From: Alishewanella jeotgali KCTC 22429
Lineage (GTDB): Bacteria; Pseudomonadota; Gammaproteobacteria; Enterobacterales; Alteromonadaceae
Direction: 5' to 3'
DNA length: 64,000 bases
Assembly (NCBI RefSeq): GCF_000245735.1
Contig: NZ_AHTH01000010.1
Span: 62,001-126,000, forward strand
Part shown: positions 8,153 to 18,111 of the stretch, piece by piece
Numbering within the stretch: position 1 is the first letter of the stretch
How the letters are laid out: the number at the start of each line of letters is the position of its first letter
Program-made: the position numbers and the translations under genes
Notes under the pieces: model-generated
Databases searched by the model: none
Told to the model about the DNA's origin: nothing
What the model saw: the letters and a program-made list of their open reading frames with translations, nothing else

Positions 8153-8779
8153 TTAGAATCGAATACTGTTGTTATTCAGCGTTGCTGTAGCAGCGCCCTG
8201 GCGACCGTTAATCACCCACTGCACCTCCACCTTTTCCAGTGCCGGCGTCAGACTGAACAAACCCAGCTCCAACTGCTGCAAACGCGCCGGGTTTTGACAC
8301 AGCAAACTGATATTGGCATAAAAATCACCATGACCGGTGTAACCCGGTTCGGTCAGATCAGTATTAGCATCGGCGCTTTGCACTTCGCAATGGGCGTCGC
8401 GGCTTAAGGTAAGCCAGGTTGCCTGAGCAAGATTATCCAGCGCCAGCGCAATTTCCTGCCGTTGCTCGTTATTGCTTGGCGCATGTTCAAAACCGACAAT
8501 ATTGTAGGCGGCAGATTGCAACGCCAGTTGCAGTTCATTGCCCTCCAGCACCAGCGTCAGCGTCGCCGCGCCATGCACATGGGCACCCAATTGAGTCATG
8601 TCATCATGATCATGGTCGTGCGCATGCTTGTGATCATGATCGTGTTTATGATCATGATCGTGATTATGTTGTTCAGCCTTGGGCGCTTTGTCGTGCTGAT
8701 GCGCCGGATGCGCCTGAACCAGCGCAGCCGGGCCCAGCAGTAAGGCGGGCAGCAGCAGGGCAATCAATTTTGATGACAT
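8153..8779 (-). CDS. DUF2796 (ZrgA-like) His-rich zinc-binding protein
   Basis: 208-residue exported protein. A signal peptide (residues 1-23, ending LVQA) is followed at 24-60 by an extraordinary His/Asp run with many HDHDHKHD-type repeats, then GAHVHGAATL and a beta-rich C-terminal domain. DUF2796 is the family of Vibrio ZrgA, a zinc-regulated factor needed with the zrg ABC proteins. The His tract would bind several zinc ions in the periplasm and pass them to the transporter. The gene stands alone on the minus strand, with a Zur-like site just upstream of its start. Confidence 0.85.
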   Translation of the reverse strand: MSSKLIALLLPALLLGPAALVQAHPAHQHDKAPKAEQHNHDHDHKHDHDHKHAHDHDHDDMTQLGAHVHGAATLTLVLEGNELQLALQSAAYNIVGFEHAPSNNEQRQEIALALDNLAQATWLTLSRDAHCEVQSADANTDLTEPGYTGHGDFYANISLLCQNPARLQQLELGLFSLTPALEKVEVQWVINGRQGAATATLNNNSIRF

Positions 8780-8791
8780 AGCCTTCTCCTC

Positions 8792-8812
8792 AAATGTTAT
8801 TGTGTCACATCA
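8792..8812. promoter_or_regulatory. Candidate Zur operator upstream of the DUF2796 gene
   Basis: AAATGTTATTGTGTCACATC resembles the Zur consensus: the half-site AAATGTTAT is exact, and the other half matches 5 of 8 positions. It begins 13 bases upstream of the start codon. Inferred from motif and from the zinc-binding product. Confidence 0.4.
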
Positions 8813-8903
8813 TACTCAGTTTTTACGCGACTGCAACGCTAACGAATGATCGCCAAAGGGCTCACGCCCGTACTCGCCATAACTCTGATTAACTGTGGCC
8901 GCT

Positions 8904-10433
8904 ATGCGCAAACTGATTATTATTCTGGGCGATCAATTAAGCCCGGCCCTTGCCAGCCTGCGTCAGGCAGGTCCTGACGACCTGATTCTGATGGCAGAAG
9001 TGAAAACCGAAGCCCGTTACGTGAAACATCATAAGCACAAAATCATTTTACTGTTTAGCGCAATGCGTCATTTTGCCGCAACCTTACGGCAACAGGGCTT
9101 TGCGCTTTGTTATCTGGAATATGGCGCACAGCCGGGTATTCACAGTATGACCGATGCCGTGGCCTATGCCTTGCAGCAGCAAGAGTTCAGTGACATTGTC
9201 ATCACCGAGTGCGGCGAATACCGGTTGCAACAGGAGATACTGAGCTGGCGCGAACGTTTTAATCTGCCGCTGCACGTGCTGGAAGATGACCGCTTTATCT
9301 GTTCAACGGCGATGTTTGCACAGTGGGCCACTGATCGCCAGCAGCTGCGGATGGAGTTTTTTTACCGCCAGATGCGGCGCTATACCGGCTTACTGATGGA
9401 TGCGAAGCAACAACCTGTCGGTGGCCAATGGAACTATGATAAAGACAATCGCAAAGCCTGCCCTCCGGATCTAAAGCAAGTTCCGCCATTGCAGTTTAGC
9501 CCCGATGACATTACCCGGCAGGTGATGGCGCTGGTTGAAACCGAGTTTGCCGACCATCCTGGCAGCGTCGGCGAATTTCACTATGCCGTCACTGGTAAAG
9601 CCGCCCGGCAGGCGTTCTTGCATTTTGTTGATCAGCAACTGGCCAACTTTGGCGATTATCAGGACGCAATGCTGCTGGAGCAGCCATTCTTGTTTCACAG
9701 CATCTGTTCGATGTACCTGAATGCAGGTTTACTGGATGTACGCTGGATGTGCCAGAAAGTCGAAACCGCCTGGCGCGAGCAAAGCGTCAGCCTGAATGCC
9801 GCCGAAGGCTTTATCCGGCAGCTCATTGGCTGGCGCGAATATGTCCGCGGGCTGTATTGGTTAATGATGCCAGACTACAGCCGCCATAATTTCCTGCAGG
9901 CGCATACACCTTTGCCCGGGTTTTACTGGCATGCCGGAACTAAGATGCGCTGTATGCAGCAGGCGATCAGTCAAACCCTGCAACATGGCTATGCGCATCA
10001 TATTCAACGCTTAATGGTTACCGGTAACTTTGCCTTACTGGCGGGCTTAGCCATCGATGAAGTCACGGCCTGGTATCTGGCGGTTTATGTCGATGCCTAC
10101 GAGTGGGTTGAGCTGCCCAATACGCTGGGAATGGCGTTATTTGCCGATGGCGGCATTCTGGCGTCAAAACCCTATGCCGCCAGCGGAGCCTATATCAACC
10201 GAATGAGCAACTATTGCAAACATTGCCACTACCAGGTGAAAGAGGTGACAGGTGCCAAAGCCTGCCCTTTTAACGCCCTATATTGGGATTTTCTGGCCCG
10301 CAACGAGTCGCAATTAGGTCAGAATGCACGGATGCAGCTGGCTTATAAAAACTGGCATAACAAAACGCCGGAGCAGCAACAGGCGATCCGCGCTCAGGCT
10401 GCGCAGTGGTTAATACAGATTGAGCAGTTATGA
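8904..10433 (+). CDS. FeS-BCP type (6-4) photolyase / cryptochrome
   Basis: 509-residue flavoprotein of the DPRP family (bacterial iron-sulfur photolyases such as Agrobacterium PhrB), which repair (6-4) pyrimidine photoproducts with light using FAD, a lumazine antenna and a 4Fe-4S cluster. The N-terminal Rossmann domain starts MRKLIIILGDQLSP. Counting from the ATG at 8904, cysteines fall at 350, 438, 441 and 454, exactly the cluster ligand positions reported for PhrB; this also favours this start over the GTG at 8895. It is the first gene of a three-photolyase operon, and its stop overlaps the next start (ATGA). Confidence 0.9.
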   Translation: MRKLIIILGDQLSPALASLRQAGPDDLILMAEVKTEARYVKHHKHKIILLFSAMRHFAATLRQQGFALCYLEYGAQPGIHSMTDAVAYALQQQEFSDIVITECGEYRLQQEILSWRERFNLPLHVLEDDRFICSTAMFAQWATDRQQLRMEFFYRQMRRYTGLLMDAKQQPVGGQWNYDKDNRKACPPDLKQVPPLQFSPDDITRQVMALVETEFADHPGSVGEFHYAVTGKAARQAFLHFVDQQLANFGDYQDAMLLEQPFLFHSICSMYLNAGLLDVRWMCQKVETAWREQSVSLNAAEGFIRQLIGWREYVRGLYWLMMPDYSRHNFLQAHTPLPGFYWHAGTKMRCMQQAISQTLQHGYAHHIQRLMVTGNFALLAGLAIDEVTAWYLAVYVDAYEWVELPNTLGMALFADGGILASKPYAASGAYINRMSNYCKHCHYQVKEVTGAKACPFNALYWDFLARNESQLGQNARMQLAYKNWHNKTPEQQQAIRAQAAQWLIQIEQL

Positions 10434-11770
10434 CAACACTGGTACTACTAAATAGCAGCTTACGGCTGGATGACAACCCACTGCTCAAGGCGCCAGCGGG
10501 GCCTGCCGCTGCCGTTGTGGTGCTTGAGCAGCAGCAGTGCTTTGGCCGCCAGTATGGCCTCTATCGCTGCAACCTGTGGCGCCTGAAAACCCAGCTGCAA
10601 GCCGTTCAGGCGCTCACTGAGGCCCTGGCACAGCATAATATTGGCCTGATTATCCGCTTTGGCGATACCCGCAGCGAACTCTTACAGTTAGCAGAACAGC
10701 TGCAGGCCGATAGACTGCTGGCCAGTGAGCCAACGGCACCGGAGGAATACCAGGCGCTGCGTGCTCTGACACCCGCGCTTGCGCTGGAACTGCAGGATAA
10801 TAACAGCCTACTCGGCGCTACGCTAAGACCAGAACTTGGCCGCTTGCCCGATCGCTTTACGCAATTTCGCAAACAGTTGGAGCCAAGCCTGTTGGTCACG
10901 CCGCCGCAAAGGACTCAGCCTGCTGGTGACTGGTTAAGCCCGGCAGCTGCCGCTACTTACTCGCAGCAGGTGATACTGCAGCAATGGCTTGGCAACAGCG
11001 TTCCGGCGCGCTGGGATGAAACTAAGGCGCTGGCGCGACTTAAGCATTTTATCTGGCAGGGCCAGCATATTCTGCATTACAAAGACAGCCGCAATGCGCT
11101 CATCGGTGAGCATTACGCCAGTTTTTTCTCAACGCCGCTCAGCCTTGGAACCTTGTCGGTGCGCCGCTGCTGGCAGCAGGTGGAACAATTTGAACAGCAG
11201 ATCGAAGCTAACGAATCGACCTACTGGCTAAAATTTGAATTACTGTGGCGGGAGTTTTTCCGCTGGCAAATGCGCAAATATCAGGCGCGCTGGTTTAGCA
11301 AAACCGGCATCAGCGGTAAGGCTGATTACACCAAACCCAACCTGAACAACTCGCAGCAGCATGCTTTTGCCAACTGGTGTGCCGGTAATACTGGCGTGCC
11401 TTTTATCGATGCCAATATGCGGCTGTTAAATCAGAGCGGTTTAATGAGTAACCGCGGCCGGCAGAATGTGGCCAGCTATCTGGTGCATGACTTGGCGCTG
11501 GACTGGCGGCTGGGCGCTGCCTACTTCGAGCAGCGGCTACTCGATTATGATGTGGCCAGTAACTGGGGTAACTGGGCCTATATCGCAGGCTATGGTAATA
11601 GTGAAGCCCGGCCATTTAACCCGATTAAGCAGGCGCTCTGGTACGATCCGGACGCGGCCTTTGTGCGGCAGCTGCTGCCGGACATCAGCGGCGTCGGTAA
11701 GGCAGCGCATCGCCCTGCCGCGCACGCCCGCCTGTTACCGCAGTGGCGCAGCTGGTTAAGCGAACTCTAG
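10430..11770 (+). CDS. DASH-family cryptochrome
   Basis: 446-residue cry-DASH: an N-terminal antenna-binding photolyase domain (MTTLVLLNSSLRLDDNP) and a C-terminal FAD domain with WREFFRWQMRKYQARWF, NMRLLNQSGLMSNRGRQNVAS and ASNWGNWAYIAGYG, all typical of DASH proteins. These repair CPD lesions mainly in single-stranded DNA and may act as blue-light sensors. The start codon overlaps the stop of the (6-4) photolyase by four bases, implying translational coupling. The cysteines of the iron-sulfur type are absent. Confidence 0.92.
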   Translation: MTTLVLLNSSLRLDDNPLLKAPAGPAAAVVVLEQQQCFGRQYGLYRCNLWRLKTQLQAVQALTEALAQHNIGLIIRFGDTRSELLQLAEQLQADRLLASEPTAPEEYQALRALTPALALELQDNNSLLGATLRPELGRLPDRFTQFRKQLEPSLLVTPPQRTQPAGDWLSPAAAATYSQQVILQQWLGNSVPARWDETKALARLKHFIWQGQHILHYKDSRNALIGEHYASFFSTPLSLGTLSVRRCWQQVEQFEQQIEANESTYWLKFELLWREFFRWQMRKYQARWFSKTGISGKADYTKPNLNNSQQHAFANWCAGNTGVPFIDANMRLLNQSGLMSNRGRQNVASYLVHDLALDWRLGAAYFEQRLLDYDVASNWGNWAYIAGYGNSEARPFNPIKQALWYDPDAAFVRQLLPDISGVGKAAHRPAAHARLLPQWRSWLSEL

Positions 11771-11772
11771 CG

Positions 11773-13281
11773 ATGCATCTGCTGTGGTTTAAACGCGACC
11801 TGCGCCTCGAAGACCACGCCGCGCTGTTTTATGCCGCCAAAAATGGCAGCGCCGTGTTACCAGTCTATATTGTCGAGCCGGATTATTGGCAACAGCCTGA
11901 CGTGTCGTTACGGCACTGGGCCTTTGTCAGCGAAGCTCTGACGCAGCTGCAGCAGCAACTGACAGCACTGGGGCAGCCGCTGTTAGTATGTTATGGCGCC
12001 GCGACCCGGGTACTACGTGAACTCTGTGCCCGCTTTCCGATCAGCGCTGTCTATAGCCACCAGGAAACCGGTAATTTATGGAGCTATCAGCGTGATCTGG
12101 CAGTAGCACGTTTACTGGCAGAACTGGCTCTACCCTGGCAGCAATACCCGCAGTTTGCGGTGATCCGCGCGCTCAGCTCCCGTGATCACTGGTTCGAGCA
12201 AGCTGATCATTGGCTGAGCCAACCGCTGTACCCCTGCCCGGCCAGGCTACCTTTTATTTGCGCCGCGAACTGGCTGGCGCCGCTGCCGGTACCGCAACGT
12301 AGCCGCGATTTGCCGGCGTGTCAGCAGCGGCAGCATGGCTGGCAGCTGCAACAAACGCTGGATAGCTTTCTACACCAACGCAGCCAGCACTATCATGGCG
12401 GCATTTCTTTTGCGGCGCGCGCAGTAAACAGCTGCTCCCGCCTCAGCCCCTTTCTGGCTTATGGCCAGCTTAGTATCCGTCAACTGCAGCAGCTTACCGA
12501 GCAACAACGTAAGGCCAGCGATTCCACGCAGCAAAAACGCGGGCTGCAGGCGTTTTACAGCCGGCTGCGCTGGCATTGCCACTTTATACAGAAGCTGGAA
12601 GATGAACCGGAAGTGGAAATGCGTAATATGCATCGCGGCTTTGATGGCTTACGCGAGGACGCCTTTGATGCGACGCTGTATCAAGCCTGGGCCAGCGGTC
12701 AGACCGGCTATCCGCTGATTGACGCTGCCATGCGCTCTCTGCTACATACCGGTTGGCTGCACTTTCGCGGCCGCGCCATGTTGGTGGCCTTTGCCAGTTA
12801 TCATTTGTGGCTGCACTGGCGGCCGCTGGCACTACATCTGACACAATGCTTTGTCGACTACGAGCCGGGCATCCACTATCCGCAAATACAGATGCAAGCC
12901 GGCACGACCGGGATCAACCCCGACCGTATGTATAACCCGGTAAAGCAAAGTATGCAAAAAGATCCCAAAGGCGAGTTTATCCGGCAATGGCTGCCGGAAC
13001 TACGCCGGGTGCCGGACAGCTGGCTGCATCAGCCCTGGTTGATGAGCAGCTCGCTGCAACAGCAATACGGTTGTGTGATAGGCCGCGATTATCCGGCACC
13101 GGTGGTCGCGGCCGGCCAGGCCGTAAGCGCAGCCAGAGCGAAACTCAGTCAGTGGCTGGCGCAGCAACGCGGGCAGTTTGAACTGGAAAAGCGTCAGGTA
13201 TTTCAGCGCCATGCCAGCCGGAATCGGCCAGCAGAGCGGCGCTCAGTAAAGCAGAGCAGCCAGCTCGGGTTATTCGACTAA
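11773..13281 (+). CDS. Photolyase/cryptochrome-like FAD-binding protein (third clade)
   Basis: 502-residue protein with an N-terminal photolyase domain (MHLLWFKRDLRLEDHAAL) and a C-terminal FAD domain including GYPLIDAAMRSLLHTGWLHF. At about residues 367-390 it has IHYPQIQMQAGTTGIN...YNPVKQ in place of the NWxW...NP segment of CPD photolyases and of the DASH neighbour. It therefore belongs to a separate, little-studied photolyase-like clade. The start is the ATG two bases after the cry-DASH stop; an earlier in-frame GTG lies inside that gene. Repair versus sensory function cannot be told from sequence. Its C-terminus is Arg/Gln/Ser rich. Confidence 0.8.
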   Translation: MHLLWFKRDLRLEDHAALFYAAKNGSAVLPVYIVEPDYWQQPDVSLRHWAFVSEALTQLQQQLTALGQPLLVCYGAATRVLRELCARFPISAVYSHQETGNLWSYQRDLAVARLLAELALPWQQYPQFAVIRALSSRDHWFEQADHWLSQPLYPCPARLPFICAANWLAPLPVPQRSRDLPACQQRQHGWQLQQTLDSFLHQRSQHYHGGISFAARAVNSCSRLSPFLAYGQLSIRQLQQLTEQQRKASDSTQQKRGLQAFYSRLRWHCHFIQKLEDEPEVEMRNMHRGFDGLREDAFDATLYQAWASGQTGYPLIDAAMRSLLHTGWLHFRGRAMLVAFASYHLWLHWRPLALHLTQCFVDYEPGIHYPQIQMQAGTTGINPDRMYNPVKQSMQKDPKGEFIRQWLPELRRVPDSWLHQPWLMSSSLQQQYGCVIGRDYPAPVVAAGQAVSAARAKLSQWLAQQRGQFELEKRQVFQRHASRNRPAERRSVKQSSQLGLFD

Positions 13282-13309
13282 CACCTTGGCTTAAGCTGAC
13301 GGGAGCAGC

Positions 13310-13708
<399 letters not shown>

Positions 13709-14668: not shown

Positions 14669-14767
14669 AGCATAATAATCCAAACCAATATAAATAACAT
14701 TTATTTCACAAACGCAGTACCCTGACTACACTTCCTGCTAGCTATGTGTAAAAGTCGGAGTGCGACC

Positions 14768-15259
14768 ATGCGCCAAGATGGACTCACCTTATTAGAAATA
14801 CTCATATGTATAGCCGTGCTACTGATTTTGTTAACATTAGGTGCGCCAGCTATGGATGAGTTTATCCATAAACAAAGGGCTGAAAGTTATGTGCAACAAT
14901 TCCAGCGACACCTTAACTATGCTCGGGTACAAGCCAGCAGCAGTCAACAGCCAGTAAGGCTTTGTCCGGGGCAGATAGACTTATGCCAAGGTCAGTGGCA
15001 AAAAGATCCATTACTGCTGAGTTTATTAAACCCCCTGACCAACCAAGCGATATTGTTGCGAGAGCTTCCGCTGTTGCCATCAGGACATCAGTTAAGTTAC
15101 AACCGCCAACAACTGCAGTTTCGCCGTGACGGCAGTCTGGACGCGCTGGAGAATGGGACTTTTCATTATTGTCCACCAGGACGGTTTAACTGGCATTATC
15201 GTATTGTGATGAATCAAGCCGGGCGCAATAGGCTGCAACGGTTGCCATACGCTTGTTGA
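14768..15259 (+). CDS. GspH/FimT-type minor pseudopilin
   Basis: 163-residue type IV pilus/secretion pseudopilin. The class III signal MRQDG is cut before LTLLEI, putting Glu at mature position 5, followed by a long hydrophobic helix (residues 6-30). A GspH-like C-terminal domain with several cysteines follows (CPGQIDLC, CPPGR, terminal Cys). I start at the ATG at 14768, nine bases after GGAG, not the upstream GTG-type start. It is the only pilin gene in this region on the plus strand and converges on the PilE-like gene. It supplies the FimT/FimU-type subunit missing from the second minus-strand set. Confidence 0.8.
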   Translation: MRQDGLTLLEILICIAVLLILLTLGAPAMDEFIHKQRAESYVQQFQRHLNYARVQASSSQQPVRLCPGQIDLCQGQWQKDPLLLSLLNPLTNQAILLRELPLLPSGHQLSYNRQQLQFRRDGSLDALENGTFHYCPPGRFNWHYRIVMNQAGRNRLQRLPYAC

Positions 15260-15272
15260 GCAGCATACTAAT

Positions 15273-15674
15273 TTAGTCCCAACAACTTAGTGCCGCCGAC
15301 ACACCATGGTTGCGTTGTCCCAGGTGATTTATCGAAAATTGCTGACAAGCACTATCGTGTTGTTGTGCCCCCTGAGCTGTAAGAATTATCTGAAAAGCCG
15401 TACCATCTGAATCTATAACGAGCTGAATTCGATAACGTCCTGAACTTGTGTCAGCGGAGGACACCCCCAAATCGGCCAGCTGGTCGGAGTAACGCCCCGT
15501 GTCTAATAATCTTTGCTCCTGACGATTGGCTAGTTCTAACAAGGTGGTGACTGCCTCAGCACGGTAACTACGCAAAACAAACTGTTGATATGACGGGTAG
15601 CTCAGCTGTATTAAAATGCCTAAGATCGCTAATACCACTAACATCTCTAACAAACTAAAGCCCCGGGTAAACAT
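15273..15674 (-). CDS. PilE-like minor type IV pilin (set B)
   Basis: 133 residues; prepilin signal MFTRG followed by FSLLEMLVVLAILG with Glu5, then the pilin alpha-helix (SYPSYQQFVLRSYRAEA) and a small C-terminal domain ending in a likely disulfide loop (DSACQQF...ALSCW). This matches the PilE-type minor pilin at the end of Pseudomonas-like fimU-pilVWXY1Y2E operons. Its start overlaps the stop of the PilY1-like gene by one base. Minor pilins prime pilus assembly and tip complex formation at the inner membrane. Confidence 0.85.
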   Translation of the reverse strand: MFTRGFSLLEMLVVLAILGILIQLSYPSYQQFVLRSYRAEAVTTLLELANRQEQRLLDTGRYSDQLADLGVSSADTSSGRYRIQLVIDSDGTAFQIILTAQGAQQHDSACQQFSINHLGQRNHGVSAALSCWD

Positions 15675-16732
15675 CAGAATGCCCCCCTCTCATCACGGTA
15701 GGTAGCCAGGCGCTGCCAAAGCGGAAATCTGTCCAGAGTCAGGGGCGCAGTGCATTGATGGCATTCATGACTGATTTTTAGCAGCCCATCCAGCAAAGAG
15801 ATATAGTGCGTCTCATCCTGTAACACCAGCGCCAGTGTTTTATCTGGCTGTTCGCGTATCTTTAGCACAGCATTATCCAACACTGGGATTTTCCAACTCC
15901 GCTGTCGGTATACCTGAGTAGCAGTATATAATTGAAACGCGAAAAGTAATTGCTCCGTCTGATTCGCGTGACAAATACCAAATCCCTCGCTGGTAACAAC
16001 GGGCGCGTAAATCACACCGGCGATAACCTTTGGCATGCTACTAATTCTGCCCGGTAGCGACACCTTCCAACCGGCGGCACTTAATATTGTCCGCCAATCA
16101 GCCGCCGAGAACTGCTGTTTAAGCTCCGGCTCACTGAGTAAGGTTCTGTCGAGCAGATGCTGACTATTCAGCAGATACTGTAACTTCAAAAGCGCATCAA
16201 AACGCAAATTAAAGAGTACATCCTTACCGGATAGTGGCTCAGTACCTACCAGTAACAGTTGATGGTGGTCAACGCTACGCCAAGACGCTGGAGCCAGATG
16301 CCTTGGCAGGCGAGCACGAATTAGCGCAATGGTGCTACCAAAGAACAAGCCAGAATCAGATAAGTCGGCCATTAACCGTGGGATGCCAAACAACCCGTCA
16401 CTGATAGATAGCCGCCATAGCCGACCATCGATGCCTAGTAGCCATAAATGGTCTGCTATGCCGTCTAGGTTCCAGTCTTCCGCCAAGGGCTTAGCTAATA
16501 CTCGAATATCTGCCGCTATATCCGATAAATCGAAGCTGGTAAGGAGCGGACCGTGCTCTTTTACCAGCTCTAGCCGCTGCTTAGCATCGTCCGCTGTCAC
16601 TAAGTTTACGCTGGCATAAGTCACTTGTTGCTGATGATGGATCCTAACCTTTACCGGTTCAGCCTGAGATAAAGGACAAAATGCCTGTACCTGTGCAACA
16701 AACAATAACAAGCAGCCAAGTACGAACTTCAT
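15674..16732 (-). CDS. Short PilY1-like protein
   Basis: 352 residues with an N-terminal signal peptide (MKFVLGCLLLFVAQVQAF). No database-level match is claimed, but the segment from Asp86 carries a calcium-loop pattern DxNxDGxxD (DWNLDGIADHLWLLGIDGRL) followed by WRLSISDG, strikingly like the beta-propeller of PilY1, which caps type IV pili. It sits where pilY1 sits in Pseudomonas operons (after pilX, before pilE). PilY1 is usually over 1000 residues, so the von Willebrand-like N-terminal part is absent. The frame is intact, so this looks like a reduced version rather than a broken gene. Confidence 0.55.
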   Translation of the reverse strand: MKFVLGCLLLFVAQVQAFCPLSQAEPVKVRIHHQQQVTYASVNLVTADDAKQRLELVKEHGPLLTSFDLSDIAADIRVLAKPLAEDWNLDGIADHLWLLGIDGRLWRLSISDGLFGIPRLMADLSDSGLFFGSTIALIRARLPRHLAPASWRSVDHHQLLLVGTEPLSGKDVLFNLRFDALLKLQYLLNSQHLLDRTLLSEPELKQQFSAADWRTILSAAGWKVSLPGRISSMPKVIAGVIYAPVVTSEGFGICHANQTEQLLFAFQLYTATQVYRQRSWKIPVLDNAVLKIREQPDKTLALVLQDETHYISLLDGLLKISHECHQCTAPLTLDRFPLWQRLATYRDERGAF

Positions 16733-17106
16733 GGCCCCACCTCCTGTAACCGCAAACGCTTACGCATTAGCAGAGTGTTATAGCGGGTGATTGATGGTGG
16801 CTGCTGACTCTGCTCGCTCGTTTCCAAGACTAGCAATTCACACTGCAGCGCAGCATCAGACCAGGCGGCATAGACGCCAGGGCATGAGGGCAGAACAAAG
16901 CTACTCTCCTTGATTTCATTAGCATCTAAGGTTTTTAATTGCTGCAAATGCTGCTCCAACGCTCGCAACTCCTGCTGCAATTGCTGTTGGGCGATCTGCG
17001 CCGACTTGTAGCTGAGCTGACTCAGCAATAGATTACTTGCGACAACTAATAACATTACGACTAAAAACAACAGCGCACTGAGCAAAACCAATCCTCGCTC
17101 TCTCAT
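16729..17106 (-). CDS. PilX-like minor pilin (set B, short)
   Basis: 125 residues: the start MRERGLVLLSALLFLVVMLLV has the PilX-type N-terminus, which lacks the usual Glu5 context, followed by a Gln-rich coiled-coil helix (about 30-60) and a short C-terminal domain with two cysteines. PilX subunits help pilus aggregation and the tip complex. It is much shorter than the PilX of the upstream set. It overlaps the PilY1-like gene by four bases and follows the PilW-like gene by 54 bases. Confidence 0.7.
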   Translation of the reverse strand: MRERGLVLLSALLFLVVMLLVVASNLLLSQLSYKSAQIAQQQLQQELRALEQHLQQLKTLDANEIKESSFVLPSCPGVYAAWSDAALQCELLVLETSEQSQQPPSITRYNTLLMRKRLRLQEVGP

Positions 17107-17160
17107 AGCTCCTCCGATGTTTCAGTTACAATAAATTAATGTTAAAAAAGCTCCTTAACT

Positions 17161-18111
17161 CTAACCTTCAGCAACGGCAAATTGTACAGCTCCACTTAGT
17201 AACAAGCGGCGATAATGATCACCAGGGGCAACAAAACGACTCTCCCCCATTTGATAGTTTTGGTTATTACGATAACGCCGATCCGGTTCCAAAGTTCTTA
17301 GCAATACGTAAAAACGGATCCCGGTAATTCGATACTGTTGCTGCAACCAGTGTGCATCTTGCATTTGCGCTGTTGGCAGCAGAGCATCGGACTTACCATC
17401 CAGATCGGTATCAATTAGAAACTCGAAATGTAAACGTTCAACCCCATCAAGTATCGAGTCGGTGCTAATACTGGCCTGGCCTGAAGCAGTTCGGATCAGT
17501 CTTTTGCGCATCAATACCGGCACATCACTATCAGCCTGACGCTGCATTTGGATATACAGCACCAAATGTTGGTAGGGATAAATAAGATTATCCGTATGTA
17601 AATTGCTATCCCGGTTCAAAAAATAGGCCTGCGGCAAGTCGGCAGTAAGATAAAATCGATTGGAACGCATCTCTGCAGCTGCGACTGACGCTCCTAATGC
17701 TCGCTTTATCTGGATAAATTCAGTTTCTTTAGCGACATCATTCAGACAATTCAGCTGCCTACCACCTTGCCCCAGCCCTGCGTACAGATTGATAAATGGC
17801 TGTCCAACAACAGGGAAACTACCACTATCCAGACCTGACTCCAGGCAATCACCTGCAGGAGAGGCAATTTCCGATATCGCATCTTGCATTTGAGCCAGTG
17901 TTTTGCCAGCCAGAAAGCCGCCATTTTGGAGTTCGTTATACAGTAGATTAAGGGCTAACTGGCCATTTTGCTGTAAGAAAGCTAATTGACGACTTTGGGT
18001 TGAAGAAGCACTCAAGGTATTAAAAGCTGTCAGCATTAAAACGAGCAACATCAACCCTAAAGCGGTTGCTATCATTAATTCTGTTAGTGTTAAGCCTCCT
18101 TGCCTTTGCAT
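17161..18111 (-). CDS. PilW-like minor pilin (set B)
   Basis: 316 residues; prepilin signal MQRQGG then LTLTELMIATALGLMLLVLML with the Glu5 position, followed by NGQLALNLLYNELQNGGFLAG, a hallmark of PilW. The large C-terminal domain includes DTDLDGKSDALL, an acidic calcium-loop-like segment. It is separated by only three bases from the PilV-like gene upstream. PilW is one of the core minor pilins that start assembly. Confidence 0.85.
   Translation of the reverse strand: MQRQGGLTLTELMIATALGLMLLVLMLTAFNTLSASSTQSRQLAFLQQNGQLALNLLYNELQNGGFLAGKTLAQMQDAISEIASPAGDCLESGLDSGSFPVVGQPFINLYAGLGQGGRQLNCLNDVAKETEFIQIKRALGASVAAAEMRSNRFYLTADLPQAYFLNRDSNLHTDNLIYPYQHLVLYIQMQRQADSDVPVLMRKRLIRTASGQASISTDSILDGVERLHFEFLIDTDLDGKSDALLPTAQMQDAHWLQQQYRITGIRFYVLLRTLEPDRRYRNNQNYQMGESRFVAPGDHYRRLLLSGAVQFAVAEG

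Follow-up and report, generated by a model that had tools for sequence, protein, structure and literature searches.

What does the third photolyase-family protein of an operon do, when its two companions appear to be photolyases of known types? The question is raised by a stretch of 64,000 nucleotides from Alishewanella jeotgali KCTC 22429 (contig NZ_AHTH01000010.1, positions 62,001 to 126,000; the window), in which three photolyase/cryptochrome genes are read in series:

8904..10433, plus strand: FeS-BCP-type (6-4) photolyase (PhrB/CryB family), 509 amino acids; PF04244; PDB 4dja, E 1.3e-162
10430..11770, plus strand: Cry-DASH-type photolyase, 446 amino acids; TIGR02765, 344 bits; ATGA overlap with the preceding gene
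11773..13281, plus strand: third-clade photolyase-family protein, 502 amino acids; own clade with support 100/100

We consider it about an even chance that the third protein is a light-dependent repair enzyme, tethered to the sliding clamp, for a target other than ordinary duplex cyclobutane pyrimidine dimers (CPDs). What appears to be new, judged from sequence, is a class of the photolyase family with a rewired pocket and a putative clamp-binding tail, widespread in bacteria and barely studied.

The third protein is a member of the photolyase/cryptochrome superfamily. Both PF00875 and PF03441 score above their cut-offs (photolyase domain 3-124, flavin adenine dinucleotide (FAD) domain 261-459), and the AlphaFold 2 model has the photolyase fold with a mean predicted local distance difference test (pLDDT) score of 92.4. 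None of the five NCBIfam models that it matched gives a score above cut-off, the best being 179 of 506 bits. An earlier sequence-only reading of this DNA had taken it for a third-clade member and doubted that it was a standard CPD enzyme. The tree agrees in giving it a group of its own (100/100, stem 1.7), and the class I group of E. coli and Anacystis Phr stands apart (97/80). The placement outside class I thus stands; a sister relationship is not rejected by the approximately unbiased (AU) test, with p 0.204 for a joint side with class I and 0.247 on 132 columns. A joint side with DASH is likewise not rejected (AU p 0.443, 132 columns). The protein does resemble Cry-DASH in fold, and Synechocystis 1np7 is its best sequence match in the PDB (E 7e-47); however, it reaches 155 bits with TIGR02765 against a cut-off of 317, and the two form separate groups, each at 100/100. 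It does not group with class III 4u63 in either tree, nor with the eukaryotic (6-4)/animal cryptochrome chains 3fy4, 6fn0 and 6kx4 in the 132-column tree, and it lacks the HHLARH motif, having Phe331 and Ala335 at those positions. It is not of the NewPHL/SPL type, as the FAD domain follows the photolyase domain and is not inverted. Within the window's family the clade occurs in 66 of 147 genomes, and it occurs in other phyla as well.

The pocket was examined in an alignment of 131 rows, comprising the window protein and 130 third-clade open reading frames (ORFs; 132 loci tried), with 36 references (15 class III, 6 class I, 13 DASH, one plant CRY, 6x24, and one archaeal). The rows include near-copies, among them L048 and L076 (of the window) and the pair L146 and L159; the ORFs L142 and L171 deviate at most pocket positions. 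For E. coli Phr we assumed the customary residue roles and a numbering equal to the full-length index minus 1. The numbering of its Trp triad is given in PMC13274461. Three segments hold the changes:

12562..12582, plus strand: RLRWHCH, residues 264-270; Arg264 where E. coli Phr has the catalytic Glu274, Trp267 unchanged, His268 and His270
12763..12777, plus strand: FRGRA, residues 331-335; Phe331 at Asn341, Ala335 at Met345
12856..12918, plus strand: DYEPGIHYPQIQMQAGTTGIN, residues 362-382; His368 at the N5-facing Asn378, Ile372 at the proximal Trp382, Met374 at Trp384; Tyr369 adjoins His368

Within the last of these, IHYPQIQMQAGTTG aligns with E. coli NNGGWQWAASTGTD without gaps up to the Trp384 column, and the observation that the protein has this segment in place of the usual FAD-pocket sequence was correct. 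The Glu274 position is Arg in 129/131 rows, against Glu in 6/6 class I and 13/13 DASH references. Asn341 is replaced by Phe (129/131) and the flavin N5-facing Asn378 by His (128/131, the L060 row having Asn); all 34 class I, III and DASH references keep Asn at both, and the plant CRY has Asp at the second. The Met345 position is Ala in 124/131 (Gln in DASH), Trp384 is Met in 130/131 (Tyr in DASH) and Arg226 is Ile, Met, Leu or Val in 129/131. At the Trp382 position, Trp in 36/36 references, none of the 131 rows has Trp; they show V, I, L, C, F, M, A, T, S or a gap. Trp306 is missing from the third clade, as it is from the DASH rows, which keep Glu274, Asn341, Asn378 and Trp382 in 13/13. The new histidines are found in 104/131 (His268) and 129/131 (His270) rows.

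The FAD cradle is by comparison intact, with Tyr207, Ser225, Arg334 and Asp362 in 129/131 each; in E. coli numbering, Tyr222 (129), Ser235 (128), Ser238 (129), Arg344 (129) and Asp372 (129) are retained. The CPD-contact position Trp277 (Trp267 here) is Trp in 130/131, Trp359 is kept in 129/131 and Trp316 in 110/131. In the alignment, then, the cradle is kept while catalytic and CPD-contact residues are replaced, and this pattern is conserved across phyla. The likeness to E. coli Phr is confined to the fold, the N-terminal photolyase domain, the cradle and the equivalents of Trp277 and Trp359; of the class I set of Glu274, Asn341, Trp384 and the triad 382-359-306, Trp359 alone remains by sequence. 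A canonical triad or tetrad is described as characteristic of all subfamilies except class II (PMC7560933), and the third clade, in which the flavin-proximal Trp never occurs, is an exception to this rule. The residue adjoining His368 is Tyr or Trp in 123 rows and Phe in 5, and is possibly a relocated electron donor.

These replacements bear on the simplest alternative, that the third protein is a divergent but ordinary CPD photolyase, perhaps directed at single-stranded DNA (ssDNA), with an alternative electron path. The retained Trp267, the common fold and the sister placements left standing by the AU tests would fit; the exchange of Glu274 for Arg and Asn341 for Phe in 129/131 rows each, the replacement of Met345, Trp384 and Arg226, and the presence of a DASH enzyme in the same operon speak against it, and we regard this alternative as very unlikely. 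One further point in its favour comes from Vibrio cholerae, whose VcCry2 (VC1392) is perhaps an orthologue of the third protein, matched by descriptions rather than by sequence. Cry1 and Cry2 of that species have been called DASH/ssDNA photolyases (PMC11976125, PMC5241685) and both cryptochromes CRY-DASH (PMC5241685); elsewhere the function of VC1392 is called unknown (PMC4019646).

The C-terminus holds the second distinctive feature:

13207..13278, plus strand: C-terminal tail RHASRNRPAERRSVKQSSQLGLFD; net charge +4, residues 493-502 with pLDDT below 50
13261..13275, plus strand: QLGLF, putative beta-clamp binding motif; identical to the Pol II peptide of E. coli

The window protein terminates in QLGLFD. 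QLGLF is the peptide by which E. coli Pol II attaches to the beta clamp, that of UmuC is QLNLF (PMC3716654), and the consensus is QL(S/D)LF (PMC3716654, PMC9690074). The third protein shares QLxLF with these clients, and in it the peptide closes a tail that is modelled with low confidence and is probably disordered; unlike them it is not a polymerase, and its binding to the clamp is a prediction. By this C-terminal QL(S/D)LF-like peptide it is placed among the beta-clamp clients, with DnaN as the predicted partner. A loose pattern matched 78/130 third-clade ORFs and 1/44 other photolyases, and a tighter one 75/131 tails (shuffles: mean 0.4, maximum 3 in 500). The pattern was then widened on reading the misses, which included forms such as QGELF and QADLF, and applied to the last 15 residues of rows with tails of at least 20 residues (n=112). 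It matched 93/112, a post hoc count because the widening followed the first count; shuffled tails gave a mean of 0.385 and a maximum of 3 in 1000, and chance was rejected as the origin of the motif on this comparison. QLSLF is the most frequent form (14). When complete photolyase ORFs of the loci are compared, the motif is present in 81/114 third-clade, 0/36 DASH, 2/31 FeS, 0/17 weak (NewPHL-like) and 0/3 class III proteins. The tail sets the third clade apart from DASH, as it does from E. coli Phr. Other ORFs in the fetched loci gave 5 matches in 994: two Thalassospira FeS proteins, a near-identical pair of unrelated ends and a tail resembling that of a third-clade relative. The Thalassospira pair (L093:7534-9177 and L109:7534-9180, minus strand) are FeS-type (6-4) photolyases ending in the clamp-like SEQGSLF, which may mean that another class of photolyases has also acquired clamp docking.

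We note a set of third-clade proteins, mostly from the window's family, in which the pocket is kept and the tail and motif are absent, with RHVRP-type ends (L012, L014, L060-L062, L065, L067-L075). L014 and L070, both short-tailed, branch first within the clade (pair 100/99, rest 96/94); as this pair splits off first, the tail was either lost in them or gained later.

The sequence-only reading had allowed that the operon might include a light sensor. As the third protein ends in a beta-clamp motif, a job on DNA is suggested rather than that of a free sensor, and a free light sensor with no DNA role is weakened by the motif together with the repair-type neighbours. We suggest that the protein probably docks on the DnaN sliding clamp through its basic tail and terminal QLxLF, which would keep it on the DNA of replication forks and repair gaps. 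The FAD would lie in the rebuilt pocket, with His368, Arg264, His268/His270 and Phe331 about it, and under blue light would either reverse a pyrimidine photolesion or protect the fork. Ordinary duplex CPDs are probably not the target; these would fall to a class I enzyme whose gene lies at another place in the genome, and the operon would make the third protein together with the (6-4) photolyase and the DASH enzyme. In this scheme the binding of FAD and of the clamp, the repair driven by light and the nature of the substrate are all predictions.

Phenotypes are available for a probable member of the clade, Phr1 of Synechococcus sp. RS9916. Hand translation of the phr1 primers (PMC9426592) yields the peptides (G)LKRREG and RFQAWKE and, at the terminus, DQQLQLEL; these agree with segments of third-clade proteins and with the tails of cyanobacterial members, e.g. 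DSQQLTLDL and GSQQLSLGL. The pattern RxLxxRxxW occurs in 108/130 third-clade proteins and 0/51 other photolyases; the stricter G[LMIV]xxR[DENQ]GW occurs in 9/130 and 0/51. In the Cyanobium genome G330 the PF03441 set consists of a third-clade protein, another with a whole FAD domain (253 bits) and one partial match. The primers had no match in 251 genomes of the family of this Cyanobium and showed at least 6 mismatches everywhere at the DNA level against 13 cyanobacterial loci; as they match no locus, the link to Phr1 runs through the encoded peptides only. Cells with phr1 disrupted survived ultraviolet (UV)-C 6-fold less well and showed no change after UV-B. In an E. coli host devoid of phr and lexA, phr1 made no difference after UV-B, each of the four genes improved survival of UV-C 10-20-fold under light, and the UV-C protection by phr1-phr3 was 5-20 times less in the dark (all PMC9426592). 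The authors liken phr1 to a V. cholerae cryptochrome and propose a CPD photolyase, and the sections of that paper on Phr1 do not mention a clamp motif. Unlike the window gene, phr1 is not near DNA-repair genes (PMC9426592).

The conserved pocket histidines invite another explanation, a second, independently arisen (6-4)-type photolyase in which His268, His270 and His368 do the proton chemistry, as two histidines do in eukaryotic (6-4) photolyases. The UV-C-only profile of Phr1 resembles that of Phr4/5, which its authors predict to be (6-4) enzymes (PMC9426592). The effect of Phr4/5 in E. coli is however light-independent (PMC9426592), the HHLARH histidine positions of 3fy4 are Phe and Ala in the third protein, the 132-column tree separates the clade from the eukaryotic (6-4) group, and the first gene of the operon already encodes an FeS (6-4)-type photolyase. 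Taken together, these points make a (6-4) enzyme unlikely.

Several observations weigh against our proposal of a clamp-tethered repair enzyme. The pocket changes are in part not unique, as class III references have Gln at the Glu274 position in 7/15 and the DASH rows too lack Trp306, Met345 and Trp384; the triad is moreover not always essential (PMC7560933). The widened tail count was made after the fact, 19/112 tailed rows lie outside even this pattern, and a further 19/131 rows are short-tailed or tailless with the motif in none (L010 and L088 run into a contig end, and 14, namely L012 and 13 of L060-L075, belong to the window's family). Phr1 is tied to the clade by hand-translated primer peptides and elimination rather than by its whole sequence. 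Flavin residues including N349 and N386 are stated to be conserved in all family members (PMC9426592), which the third-clade rows do not bear out; the statement may be loose, since its wording covers the PhrB-like Phr2 too. Lastly, loss of the Glu, Asn and Trp is also expected of a cryptochrome that carries out no repair.

The last point can be combined with the tail in a clamp-bound cryptochrome, whose light-driven FAD state would alter clamp traffic, e.g. which polymerase holds the clamp, in light and hence under UV damage. The loss of the catalytic contacts with the cradle kept, the motif itself and the replaced N5-facing Asn, as in the single plant CRY row (Asp, 6x24), are what such a protein would show. 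Against this, the probable member Phr1 protects a foreign host, E. coli, from UV-C in a light-dependent manner (PMC9426592), the adjoining genes are repair-type photolyases, and Trp267 is still present at the CPD-contact position in 130/131 rows. We think a non-repairing, clamp-bound role improbable.

The first two proteins are of known types. The first has the DPRP domain (PF04244) and PhrB 4dja as its closest solved chain, matched over the full length, and on these grounds is an FeS-BCP-type (6-4) photolyase, with the cluster and repair activity predicted. Aligned to PhrB it retains the Cys of the CxxC...CPF region, which we take to be the FeS ligands. The second, at 344.4 bits with crypto_DASH TIGR02765 (cut-off 317.05) and grouping with DASH 1np7 at 100/100, is by both signs of Cry-DASH type. 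That three different family members form one coupled run was therefore rightly claimed, as were the four-base overlap (ATGA common to genes one and two; ATG 10430, stop 10433) and the two-base gap (stop 11770, ATG 11773). A GTG at 11743 is a possible upstream start that would lengthen the third frame; ATG 11773 is favoured because it matches the N-terminus of the relatives. We infer that the three genes are co-transcribed. Scans of 8780-13700 gave 3 promoter sites (3.2 expected) and 8 terminators (5.9 expected).

The operon had also been suggested to repair all the main UV lesions. The genome has three PF03441 proteins, namely the second and third proteins and one at G000:C1, which groups with E. 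coli Phr (98/74) as a class I CPD photolyase outside the operon. Since this protein is encoded separately, duplex CPD repair is probably covered from there, and the operon need not repair every lesion itself.

Synteny among relatives, proposed earlier as a check, showed the order FeS-DASH-third in Alishewanella aestuarii (L076, 98% identity to the window), Arsukibacterium indicum (L077) and a gammaproteobacterial bin (L078). The same order is found in L148, and third-DASH-FeS in L107 and L113. A photolyase-family gene lies within 6 kb of the third-clade gene in 50/80 contig loci, a sample that leans towards the window because it is the best 80 of at least 584, and many of the contigs are short. 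The partners in these 80 are FeS (32), DASH (14, one weak) and class I/III-like (22, 18 weak). In loci from the class and family searches, 31/39 have a photolyase-family gene within 1.5 kb (DASH 26, FeS 13). In alphaproteobacteria a NewPHL-like gene adjoins the third-clade gene in the place of the window's DASH gene, and the arrangement is similar in L106 and L114. Three such proteins of about 400 amino acids (L090:2073-3317, L095:7551-8837, L110:4796-5992) carry, by Pfam, the FAD domain towards the N-terminus and lack PF00875; NewPHL has an inverted domain order (PMC13274461). These weak neighbours would fit ssDNA CPD photolyases standing in for DASH.

No recurrent neighbour among 91 loci explains the function of the third clade. 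A small-protein family (L036:6836-7066 and 11 further loci) recurs in 12/91, its representative being DUF2805; MerR, short-chain dehydrogenase and lipocalin families, likewise named from representatives, are rarer. Examples of the latter are a MerR regulator (L116:4430-5428), a lipocalin (L113:5341-5970) and a short-chain dehydrogenase (L107:11755-12591), a combination that recalls light-stress clusters.

The usual view of photolyases is of enzymes that diffuse freely. If our proposal holds, the clamp-tailed class would couple photorepair to the replisome, and light repair at forks would become directly testable. Known CPD and (6-4) mechanisms do not explain the third-clade pocket, and identification of the clade's substrate would fill a gap in the understanding of how bacteria survive sunlight. 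In open-licence papers we found no three-photolyase operon, no photolyase with a clamp motif and no coupling of photorepair to the replisome. PMC9649867 counts only two earlier reports of photolyases in operons and claims the first UV-B-inducible two-photolyase operon.

Directly upstream of the operon, on the opposite strand (8153-8779, minus), lies a frame with long His/Asp runs (HDHDHKHDHDHKHAHDHDHDD), which is probably metal-related. Further downstream (14744-18111) the ORF list shows prepilin-like proteins in series on both strands, with the look of type IV pilus minor pilins.

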